IMG/VR virus record: IMGVR_UViG_3300028840_006729
Coordinates: 1-38,354 of that record
DNA length: 38,354 bases
Source: a virus
Strand: one strand, 5' to 3'
Under the pieces are notes generated by a model that had not been told where the DNA came from, searched no databases, and saw only the letters and a list, made by a program, of their open reading frames with translations. Positions within the stretch are counted from its first letter, which is position 1, and the number at the start of each line of letters is the position of its first letter. Position numbers and translations under genes: made by a program. Of this stretch, positions 2,983 through 5,321 are shown piece by piece.

Positions 2983-3102
2983 ATGAATAAAATGATTTTA
3001 CTTGGCACAGGAAAATATGTGAAACGTGAACTCCCGATTATTAAAAGAACGCCAAATAAAAAAAAATTACAAAAACTTAAAAAGAAATTACCTGAATTAT
3101 AA
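2983..3102 (+). CDS. basic micropeptide, 39 aa
   Basis: ATG at 2983 is preceded by AAATCTTAATTTTTCTAACC, the same leader type as the genes before and after it, and ends at TAA 3100-3102. The peptide starts MNKMILLGTGKYVKRELP and ends in a run of Lys/Leu (KKKLQKLKKKLPEL), giving a strongly positive amphipathic C-terminus. The shared leader is the main reason to call it a gene. Function unknown; nucleic-acid or membrane binding would suit its charge. Confidence 0.5.
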   Translation: MNKMILLGTGKYVKRELPIIKRTPNKKKLQKLKKKLPEL

Positions 3103-3120
3103 ATCTTAACTTTTAAAACC

Positions 3121-3474
3121 ATGTCAAACCTCAAAAAAATAATGGAAGAATTTGATGAAATTTTTTCTTATATTATAAATGAGCCAATTAGAGATTGGAA
3201 AGATAGGGCACTCACACAGCCAGCTATTCATGAGTTATTAAGGCGTAGTGGCTATTATGCTTACAGAAATTTTATAGAAGAAAAAATCAAAGAAATTGAA
3301 AGTAAAACTTTTAAAACCATGAATAAAAAAACAACACCTTCAGTATACTTTTTCTGCGATAAATGCGATGAAATGTTCAGGAAGTATAATCCTGAATGGA
3401 TTTGCCCGAAATGTATGCAATTTAAGATGAATATCTTAAAAGCTACTCTTTATAATTCTTTTTTAAGAAATTAA
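3121..3474 (+). CDS. two-part protein with C-terminal zinc ribbon, 117 aa
   Basis: Residues 1-66 form a charged helical part. Residues 67-117 contain a zinc ribbon: CDKC at about 79-82 and CPKC at about 95-98, with aromatic spacers. The start has leader TTAACTTTTAAAACC-ATG. Within the gene, at 3305-3321, the same leader (AACTTTTAAAACC-ATG) recurs in frame directly before the codon for residue 67, so the zinc-ribbon half may also be made alone as a 51-aa protein (3319-3474). Family not recognised. Confidence 0.7.
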   Translation: MSNLKKIMEEFDEIFSYIINEPIRDWKDRALTQPAIHELLRRSGYYAYRNFIEEKIKEIESKTFKTMNKKTTPSVYFFCDKCDEMFRKYNPEWICPKCMQFKMNILKATLYNSFLRN

Positions 3475-3485
3475 CCTTTAAAACC

Positions 3486-3860
3486 ATGAAAAAACCCCTA
3501 ACAACTACAGATAAAATCTTTGCCGGCTGGCGTATGGGGTGGAGTGCGCAGATAAAACATATAGGACATGTTATAGCTGTGTGCGTAAATGAAGACTGCA
3601 AAGAAAGAATAATAGTCATAGCGGAAAATATCTGGTGTGGTCAAATCTCCGAAGAAACACTCAATAAAATGAAAATATCAGGCTGGTTATATGCAGGAGA
3701 ACTAGCAGAGCTAGCAGTGGGTGAGCGAATAGAAGGAAAAAAATTCAGAATGAAAGATAGTGGGGAAATATTTACTGCATGGAGAAATTACACTGATTAT
3801 ATAGAACAGGATGGTCCTGATATGATTTCTAAATCAGAAATTGAACCTTATTTCGATTAA
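3486..3860 (+). CDS. hypothetical protein, 124 aa
   Basis: The leader is TAACCTTTAAAACC-ATG, again the shared type. The protein starts MKKPLTTTDKIFAGWRMGWS; the N-terminal third holds two Cys close together (CVNEDCKERI) and the rest is acidic with Trp residues. No membrane segment and no recognised domain. It is the last gene before the tRNA-like element at 3906, and the 45 bases between them are AT-rich with no clear terminator. Confidence 0.66.
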   Translation: MKKPLTTTDKIFAGWRMGWSAQIKHIGHVIAVCVNEDCKERIIVIAENIWCGQISEETLNKMKISGWLYAGELAELAVGERIEGKKFRMKDSGEIFTAWRNYTDYIEQDGPDMISKSEIEPYFD

Positions 3861-3905: not shown

Positions 3906-4073
3906 CATTCAGCAGGGGTGGCGGAATAGGTAGACGCTTCGTGAGAGCGCTTCAAGGATATGTTTTAAACGCATTGGCAAAAGATTAGGGTGTAAGCAAT
4001 AACGATTCGCCATACGGCTTACATCAACCACGTTATCCATGCTAGGGTGCAAATCCCTGCCCCCTGCTGAATG
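3906..4073 (+). tRNA. oversized tRNA-Leu-like RNA
   Basis: A tRNA-type acceptor strand (GCAGGGG, 3912-3918) pairs with CCCCTGC (4061-4067), and the pairing continues outward to a perfect 13-bp helix (3906-3918 with 4061-4073). After TG (8-9) comes a canonical leucine/serine-type D-arm (GCG-GAATAGGTAGA-CGC, 3921-3937). At the 3' side is a T-arm (TAGGG-TGCAAAT-CCCTG, 4043-4059) with one extra base before the acceptor. The middle, 3938-4042, is about 105 nt where a tRNA-Leu has about 35-45. It contains a 9-bp hairpin (3989-3997 with 4017-4025), a pairing GGATA/TATCC (3956-3960 with 4034-4038) and a possible loop with TTAA at 3965-3968. I cannot place a clean anticodon arm, so decoding is uncertain: an intron-containing tRNA, a decayed tRNA or a tRNA-like regulatory RNA are all open. 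Confidence 0.5.
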
Positions 4074-4092: not shown

Positions 4093-4494
4093 ATGAAAGA
4101 AATATTTAAAAAAATTAAAGGCATAGAATGGGACTGGTTTGGATATGATATGAGTGTATACAGCTGGGAAATTGGCAATAATAAAATCAGTTTTTGGGAT
4201 GAAAATGCTCCTGATTATGGCAGCAGTCTTGGACAGCCTACTGTTGATTATTCACTTGCTGACCTGCTTGCTAACCAAAGCTGGTGTAAGGCTGTATGGA
4301 ATAAAAAAATAAAAAAATGTTCAAATTGCGGAGGAATATCAACATCATATGGATATAAAAAATTCTATAATTGTGATTGCATAGATAATAATATTATAAA
4401 TGATTGGGAATATAGTTCAGAGCAGGCTTTTCTGACCCTCCGTGATAAAGGAAAGGAAGAAGCTATACAGTACATTGAAGCGACAATGAATTGA
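4093..4494 (+). CDS. Cys-containing hypothetical protein, 133 aa
   Basis: It starts 19 bases after the tRNA-like element with leader TTAACCTAACTT-ATG. The first 75 residues are aromatic-rich (MKEIFKKIKGIEWDWFGYDM). Residues 75-96 hold a Cys set (CSNCGGISTSYGYKKFYNCDC), a compact zinc-ribbon-like unit. The C-terminal helix is acidic. It uses a TGA stop, one of several showing that TGA is not reassigned. Function unknown. Confidence 0.66.
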   Translation: MKEIFKKIKGIEWDWFGYDMSVYSWEIGNNKISFWDENAPDYGSSLGQPTVDYSLADLLANQSWCKAVWNKKIKKCSNCGGISTSYGYKKFYNCDCIDNNIINDWEYSSEQAFLTLRDKGKEEAIQYIEATMN

Positions 4495-4823: not shown

Positions 4824-5321
4824 ATGATTTATATAACCGGAGACACACATTTCAGCCACCAAATGCTTATAGATAAGGGTTATCGCCCTGCTGATTATGA
4901 AGACAAATTCAGGAATGCGTTTAGTTATTTAAAAATCAGCGACATATTGATACATCTTGGAGACTTCTGCATTGGCAATGATGAAAAAAATCACAATTTC
5001 TTTTCACATCATATCTGGGCAAAAAGAATTTTAGTGCGAGGAAATCATGATAAAAAGCCAGATACGTGGTATTATAAGCATGGCTGGGATTTTGTCTGTG
5101 ATTCCTTTTCCTTAAAAAAATACGGGAAAATACTTGTTTTTTCGCATGAGCCTTTAAGAAATTTTATAGGTGATATTAATATTCATGCCCACTGGCACAA
5201 TAATAATCACAGGTGGGACGATTCTTTTAAAGAGTGGTACAGCGACGATAAATACAAGCTGTATTCACCGGAAAATATGAATTATCAGCCTGTCAGCCTG
5301 CGTAAATTCTTAAAATTATAA
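4824..5321 (+). CDS. calcineurin-like metallophosphoesterase, 165 aa
   Basis: All motifs of the small metallophosphoesterase family are present in order: GDTHF (D7, H9), GDF (D47), RGNHD (N74, H75), SHEP (H108) and HAHWH (H121, H123). These residues ligate the two metal ions, so the enzyme should be active on a phosphomonoester, phosphodiester or nucleotide; the substrate cannot be told from sequence. At 165 aa it is the usual size for the phage and YfcE-like short forms. It stands in a small-gene operon, after a 50-base AT-rich gap and 4 bases before a zinc-ribbon gene. Confidence 0.88.
   Translation: MIYITGDTHFSHQMLIDKGYRPADYEDKFRNAFSYLKISDILIHLGDFCIGNDEKNHNFFSHHIWAKRILVRGNHDKKPDTWYYKHGWDFVCDSFSLKKYGKILVFSHEPLRNFIGDINIHAHWHNNNHRWDDSFKEWYSDDKYKLYSPENMNYQPVSLRKFLKL

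Follow-up and report, generated by a model that had tools for sequence, protein, structure and literature searches.

A tRNA-like RNA lies among the small genes of a phage genome

The window, i.e., the whole stretch of DNA analyzed here, is a 38,354-bp phage record from IMG/VR, and a tRNA-like RNA spans positions 3912 to 4067 within it (Table 1). The RNA sits among small open reading frames (ORFs) on the plus strand, and the terminase, portal, and capsid genes are on the minus strand. A preliminary description of the locus had reported the acceptor stem, D-arm, and T-arm of a tRNA, a distance of about 105 nt between D-arm and T-arm, a missing canonical anticodon arm, and an acceptor stem that is lengthened by 6 bp to a perfect 13-bp helix (3906-3918 with 4061-4073), and all of these features are present in the sequence. 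The extended pairing, perfect in this copy, is not shared across the family described below: an acceptor extended by 6 bp or more occurs in only 7 of 227 copies, which rules out the extra closing helix as a family trait. The fully paired 13-bp end of the window copy could hinder RNase P or RNase Z.

Compared with dinucleotide shuffles, the fold of the window RNA has a z value of -2.5, and 5 of 200 shuffles folded as well; this value is modest, so that single-sequence evidence alone would not have sufficed. Shuffled windows are expected to contain the D-arm motif 0 times. ARAGORN, which the preliminary description had proposed as a check, called neither a tRNA nor a tmRNA in the window, and Rfam 15 gave no family match for the window RNA, with permissive thresholds yielding chance-level matches only. 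A pattern search of IMG/VR for relatives of the window phage via a neighboring gene or TerL found none, and hence the window copy cannot be traced in its own lineage.

A separate feature of the window is the motif TTTTAAAACCATG, which stands at the start codons of several small plus-strand ORFs and replaces the Shine-Dalgarno site there. Copies lie at 2730-2742, 3111-3123, 3309-3321, and 3476-3488 on the plus strand, one of them with a mismatch, and matches with up to two mismatches number 10, versus 3.7 expected.

Table 1. Features of the tRNA-like RNA and their coordinates in the window
Feature	Position	Strand	Remarks
Whole tRNA-like RNA, acceptor to acceptor, 156 nt	3912-4067	+	Covariance model R1 match of 74.9 bits, E 1.7e-20, this copy being one of the 80 rows used to build the model
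Extra 6-bp closing helix, 5' strand CATTCA	3906-3911	+	Pairs with 4068-4073; peculiar to the window copy
Acceptor stem, 5' strand GCAGGGG	3912-3918	+	7/7 pairs; all seven with both-side changes in the family
D-arm GCGGAATAGGTAGACGC	3921-3937	+	Preceded by U8 G9 at 3919-3920; identical to host tRNA-Leu(UAA)
Variable payload replacing anticodon arm and variable arm	3938-4038	+	One homologue, in locus L029
P2 helix, 5' strand GGATATGT, variable-arm-like	3956-3963	+	Pairs with 4030-4038, T4033 bulged
Inner hairpin GGTGTAAGC/GCTTACATC, 9 bp	3989-4025	+	Predicted in constrained and free folds
P2 helix, 3' strand ACGTTATCC	4030-4038	+	Pairs with 3956-3963
T-arm, 5-bp stem TAGGG/CCCTG plus sixth pair G4041-C4060	4041-4060	+	5-bp stem and loop at 4043-4059; C4042 bulged
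T-loop TGCAAAT	4048-4054	+	
Acceptor stem, 3' strand CCCCTGC	4061-4067	+	Pairs with 3912-3918; both-side changes in the family
Extra 6-bp closing helix, 3' strand TGAATG	4068-4073	+	Pairs with 3906-3911

The window RNA belongs to a large family

A loose pattern (GGTAGACGC, 90 to 120 nt, GTKCAARTC) matched at least 120 loci in IMG/VR, some of which are chance matches or ordinary tRNA pairs. Among the matches listed, 58 have an acceptor stem with 7/7 pairs and 22 more have one with 6/7 pairs, mostly at the exact tRNA register, and the loci also have in common letters that lie outside the pattern, namely, TGGCGGAATA before the D-loop and (C/T)AT-GNRRGG before the T-loop. It is this comparison, with dozens of other loci carrying a 7-bp acceptor at the tRNA position, that establishes that the window RNA is more than a chance occurrence. 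Stricter patterns set to other insert lengths added more loci from phages, together with 26 from genomes of bacterial species, assigned by their record titles to Bacillota. Once filtered, the collection comprised 228 distinct copies, of which 213 have the T-loop TGCAAAT and 217 have a 6-bp T-stem; the total length of the family RNAs is 108 to 243 nt. The conserved letters of the D-arm are partly imposed by the stricter patterns and not by the loose pattern, and natural D-arm variants were found by BLAST in named phages: GGCGGAACAGG, and GGTGGAAAAGG...GACAC, in which a C-G pair of the D-stem has become U-A.

Rfam 15 left the family RNA unmatched in the window and in 14 family loci, and its other matches there belong to other elements. 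The class is not described in openly licensed PMC papers, and an earlier account in a subscription paper or preprint is possible. To our knowledge, no known RNA class joins a non-decoding tRNA-Leu frame with exchange of the core as a cassette between mobile elements. We regard the family as a large unannotated class and a candidate new mobile-element RNA of Gram-positive phages and conjugative plasmids.

Two further forms were seen in the searches. Six loci (L014, L073, L075, L099, L053, and L076) form a second group with the D-loop AATTGG, a 5-bp T-stem, the loop TTCAAAT, and a long insert; this group possibly had an independent origin from another host group. In two Enterococcus phages, phiFL2A (L124 near 4995-5045) and IME197 (L343 near 2995-3045), the RNA is collapsed, with only about 18 nt between the acceptor GTCACTG/CAGTGAC and the T-arm.

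The constant frame derives from tRNA-Leu(UAA)

The constant part of the family, which we call the frame, consists of a 7-bp acceptor stem, the D-arm TGGCGGAATAGGTAGACGC, and a 6-bp T-stem with the loop UGCAAAU. In 80 aligned copies, whose rows were prefiltered for pairing, 98.7% of the cells in the acceptor, D, and T helices are paired. The same alignment has both-side changes in 345 cells, versus 78 when shuffled, and a covariation score of 0.71, versus 0.17 when shuffled; sliding the structure by one to three columns lowers pairing to 37 to 48%. An unfiltered strict-pattern set gave a similar picture, with at least 6/7 acceptor pairs in 165 of 171 copies and 6/6 T-stem pairs in 160 of 171. 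Covariation and retention of the acceptor pairing in homologues had been set beforehand as the check on a decayed tRNA, and the frame passed it strongly. Conservation of the D-arm and T-loop letters goes far beyond the needs of folding, and G18G19 of the D-loop is kept along with the T-loop.

Several features clearly point to a bacterial tRNA-Leu(UAA) as the source of the frame. Ordinary tRNA-Leu(UAA) genes found with the covariance model carry the identical D-arm, the acceptor register and the place of the T-arm are alike, and the last helix of the insert ends 2 nt before the T-stem, as the variable arm of tRNA-Leu does. One phage locus (L172) has an ordinary tRNA-Leu beside two family RNAs. 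Unlike tRNA-Leu(UAA), the family has a variable structured insert and a 6-bp T-stem with UGCAAAU, where the tRNA has UUCRANU. An anticodon arm with a 7-nt loop is found in 8 of 217 copies, versus 11 expected by shuffling, and an encoded CCA end is found in only 2 of 217. The discriminator is unfixed (A in 104, T in 74, C in 20, and G in 19 of the 217 copies), where leucine tRNAs would have A73. Thus, the acceptor, D, and T arms stand in the tRNA register, whereas the anticodon arm, the leucine discriminator, the encoded CCA, and recognition by a tRNA finder or Rfam are all lacking. Judged by these features, the family RNA is not a decoding tRNA. The earlier suggestion of a new expanded tRNA class therefore holds for the anatomy, a tRNA-Leu-derived frame with an expanded insert, and does not hold for decoding.

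The payloads are diverse and structured

The inserts, or payloads, measure 56 to 191 nt (median, 85 nt) in 217 copies and fall into 167 unrelated clusters, of which 136 are singletons. They fold mildly better than neighboring DNA (mean z, -0.63 versus -0.20). A helix that we call P2 is the last in the insert and ends two nucleotides (AT) before the T-stem. It matches the first stretch after the D-arm perfectly over 7 bp in 51 of 167 cluster representatives, a count that does not include the window copy, versus 5.9 (maximum, 13) in a permutation control in which 3' strands were swapped among copies. Compensatory changes (columns 39/85, 40/84, 43/61, 44/60, 64/79, 65/78, and 66/77) support P2 and two hairpins in a single ten-member payload family, whose loop letters are invariant; covariation inside payloads covers this one family, the other payload families being too small. 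Other copies may use pseudoknots, as read from the sequences of L100 and of the phi3T/SBSphiJ groups.

For the payload of the window copy, the payload-homologue scan found a single homologue within the frame, at L029. The helix at 3956-4038 is kept there as GGTCA/TGACT, versus GGATA/TATCC in the window, with two compensatory pairs, judged by eye; compensatory changes in the central helices were among the checks proposed in the preliminary description. For the hairpin at 3989-4025, the same scan found no homologue. Complementarity of payloads to the flanks of the element that carries them extends over 9.35 nt at its longest, versus 9.42 nt when shuffled, and we therefore rejected the idea that payloads are antisense to the element's own genes.

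Some payloads have unusual contents. Those of L024, L030, L065, L088, L303, and L306 include an additional hairpin that resembles a T-arm (GGTTCAAATCC or GGTTCGAATCC), as though the RNA had a further tRNA elbow built in. At L110 (2463-2603), a single frame holds a payload in which a unit of about 40 nt is repeated in tandem, the two copies being near-identical.

Payloads are exchanged as whole cassettes

Among 62 pairs of copies in which both flanks are related, payload identity is bimodal, being either at least 0.89 or at most 0.62, the latter being the level of unrelated sequences. In loci L040 and L220, the upstream flanks show 96% identity over 792 bp, as far as the final base of the D-arm, and the downstream flanks show 99.7% identity over 377 bp, beginning with the T-arm, with unrelated payloads in between. 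The same swap is seen in L147 and L246, with flanks that are 95.9% identical over 880 bp and 97.0% identical over 331 bp, and likewise in L114 and L060. Since flank identity stops at the end of the D-arm and resumes at the start of the T-arm, the borders of exchange are the conserved arm ends, and recombination within the conserved arms would be the simplest mechanism.

The plasmids pTEF1 and pKUB3006-2 have flanks in common and different payloads. The payload of another plasmid locus, L374, is letter-identical to those of three temperate-phage records (L147, L155, and L176), and apart from the 130-bp RNA, this 8-kb plasmid locus shows no similarity to the 10-kb locus of the lytic herellevirus Enterococcus phage 113.

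Carriers and genomic context

Named carriers of the RNA include Bacillus phages phi3T and SBSphiJ, Listeria phages B025, B054, LP-101, and LP-037, Enterococcus phage 113, Geobacillus phage D6E, and Brochothrix and Weissella phages; in nearly all named isolates it is unannotated. A plasmid search with the frame as query at a permissive E value returned 181 records, 165 of them from Enterococcus, and among the matches listed most have no more than about 25 nt of the T-arm in common with the query. The covariance model confirmed four plasmid loci: pTEF1, pKUB3006-2, an Enterococcus faecalis ES-11 plasmid with two tandem copies, and one phage-like plasmid in which ArpU, the RNA, and TerS follow each other. 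The Enterococcus faecium plasmid record p264a-b (L376) is a phage-plasmid with the order ArpU regulator, family RNA, TerS, TerL, and portal.

Copies are found at the junction of late regulator and terminase genes, in tRNA arrays, where some are in direct tandem 2 to 11 nt apart, and, on enterococcal plasmids such as pTEF1, in the interval that separates the surface-exclusion genes from the aggregation genes. The recurring neighbors are late regulators, HNH, TerS, and TerL. Of the loci with TerL within 3.5 kb of the RNA, 63 have it downstream on the same strand and 3 have it in another arrangement. For a late-regulator-type protein (DUF722, DUF1492, or a third group that has no Pfam match), the corresponding counts are 44 loci with the protein upstream and 2 with another arrangement. 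Sigma-70-like promoter sites are not enriched upstream, and an independent promoter was rejected on this ground. T-runs within 60 nt downstream occur in 40 of 216 copies, versus 20 of 216 when shuffled.

Other structured elements lie near some copies. In pTEF1 (L373, about 4215-4300), and also in L375, a second tRNA-like element (TTGGCGTG...GTAGGTTCGACTCCTACCACGCCAG) is located downstream of the family RNA and just upstream of prgU (DUF5406). In phi3T (L122, 6363-6428), the family RNA is followed after about 1.3 kb by a DUF3800-VIII RNA (Rfam RF03075).

Discussion

The combination of a constant tRNA-Leu-derived frame and a payload that is swapped as a unit sets this family beside several known systems. 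Like tmRNA, it has tRNA-like ends closed around a long inserted domain and a helix, P2, beside the T-arm; unlike tmRNA, it has a true D-stem, a total length that stays within 108 to 243 nt, and no recognized tag-coding region, and the ARAGORN tmRNA search of the window and the Rfam scan were negative. Another parallel is artificial. In the laboratory tRNA scaffold, an RNA of interest is inserted into a tRNA, so that a foreign structured RNA replaces the anticodon arm of a tRNA body. The family differs in being natural, derived from tRNA-Leu, and traded by phages and plasmids, and is a natural counterpart of that scaffold. Plant-virus tRNA-like structures stand at the 3' end of an RNA genome and are aminoacylated. 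The Tymo_tRNA-like family (RF00233) resembles ours in its viral tRNA-like fold and in the T-arm letters GGGUGCAA, a weak match below the gathering score, and plant-virus structures have no other homology to the family. Type III antitoxin RNAs (ToxI and similar) are structured and fast evolving and bind a protein partner. The family is likewise structured and fast evolving; it differs in having a tRNA frame, no Rfam match, and no toxin gene among its recurring neighbors. A packaging RNA of the phi29 type is disfavored, as there is no Rfam pRNA match in the window or in the 14 family loci and, although many copies are near terminase, others are in tRNA arrays or plasmids.

In the explanation that we favor, and hold to be slightly better than an even bet, the family RNA is a trans-acting, non-decoding, tRNA-scaffolded RNA whose exchangeable payload is a variable effector. 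The tRNA body (acceptor, D-arm, and T-arm) would be the constant scaffold used by Bacillota phages and conjugative plasmids. The RNA would be cotranscribed within a late, transfer, or tRNA operon, and host tRNA-processing enzymes would cut at the acceptor ends, RNase P at the 5' end and RNase Z or exonucleases at the 3' end; the closely spaced tandem copies and the tRNA arrays fit such a release and are no more than suggestive of it. The tRNA-like fold would stabilize the RNA, and the lack of an anticodon arm, the unfixed discriminator, and a G instead of U at T-loop position 55 would exclude it from translation. The RNA would then act in trans through its payload, with a partner that presumably varies by host or competitor, as the whole-cassette payload swaps and the sharing between phages and plasmids suggest. 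The payload would most likely be a structured decoy or inhibitor of a host defense or takeover target, and action against such a target appears the likeliest purpose. Counting against this explanation are the mild folding advantage of payloads over neighboring DNA and the fully paired 13-bp end of the window copy. A tRNA-like regulatory RNA or decoy, one of the options offered in the preliminary description, is still the best broad category.

The main rival is a cis-acting leader at the start of late operons or plasmid aggregation regions, which would act on the transcript downstream of it through cleavage to define the 5' end of that transcript, through antitermination, or at the level of translation. 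Orientation and site before the late operon in many phages suit such a leader, as do TerL downstream (63 versus 3) and the late regulator upstream (44 versus 2) and the excess of downstream T-runs (40 versus 20; n = 216). The site in pTEF1 offers a lead of the same kind, because, according to PMC8265641, earlier work linked the surface-exclusion and aggregation region to ribosome-linked control of prgB. However, many copies stand in tRNA arrays without such an operon, several tandem copies have unrelated payloads, and payloads are exchanged while the neighbors remain unchanged, and we consider a leader unlikely. Somewhat less probable still is that the frame itself is the active part, a decoy for a tRNA enzyme or a tRNA-sensing factor (RNase P, RNase Z, the CCA enzyme, LeuRS, or a defense protein that reads the tRNA elbow), with the payload as a bulky block to translation. 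Such a decoy would account for conservation of the D-arm and T-loop letters, including G18G19, far past what folding needs, and the UGCAA T-loop of the tymovirus tRNA-like structure matches in a weak cmscan alignment; it leaves the structured, cassette-exchanged payloads unexplained, and the discriminator is unfixed.

We think it improbable that the payload loops base-pair with RNAs of the host or of competing elements, which would make the family RNA an antisense or sponge RNA with a frame that serves for stability only. Variable sequences inside a constant scaffold would suit this role, and there is precedent in P4 CI and P1/P7 c4, RNase P-matured phage antisense immunity RNAs with known targets. 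These are phage RNAs, as are many of ours, for which RNase P maturation is likewise proposed, but the family has a full tRNA body and no self-complementarity, and complementarity to flanks was at the shuffled level (within the element's own DNA). A decayed tRNA-Leu or a tRNA with a miniature intron, the latter among the readings first offered, has very little left in its favor beyond the clear descent of the frame from tRNA-Leu(UAA). Decay would not retain 98.7% paired cells with massive compensatory change. The insert takes up everything between the D-stem and the T-stem and replaces the whole anticodon arm, so that excision would leave no such arm; insert sequences are unrelated between copies, and no Rfam group I or II intron family was matched in the window or in the 14 family loci. 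We therefore rejected both on the family-wide covariation and the borders of the insert.

A wider form of the trans-acting scaffold reading is more tentative, though far from negligible. The family may be a general RNA cassette system of mobile elements, in which the frame would serve as scaffold, processing signal, and recombination border, and each payload would neutralize a different host or competitor factor. Phages and conjugative plasmids would then trade an open-ended pool of structured payloads. An unannotated RNA gene that is present in the well-studied elements phi3T, SBSphiJ, B054, LP-101, 113, and pTEF1 would add a new part to the biology of phages and plasmids. The near-identical phages with different inserts amount to a swap experiment already made by nature, and if the payloads do counter host defenses, the payload pool would be a catalogue of RNA-based inhibitors.
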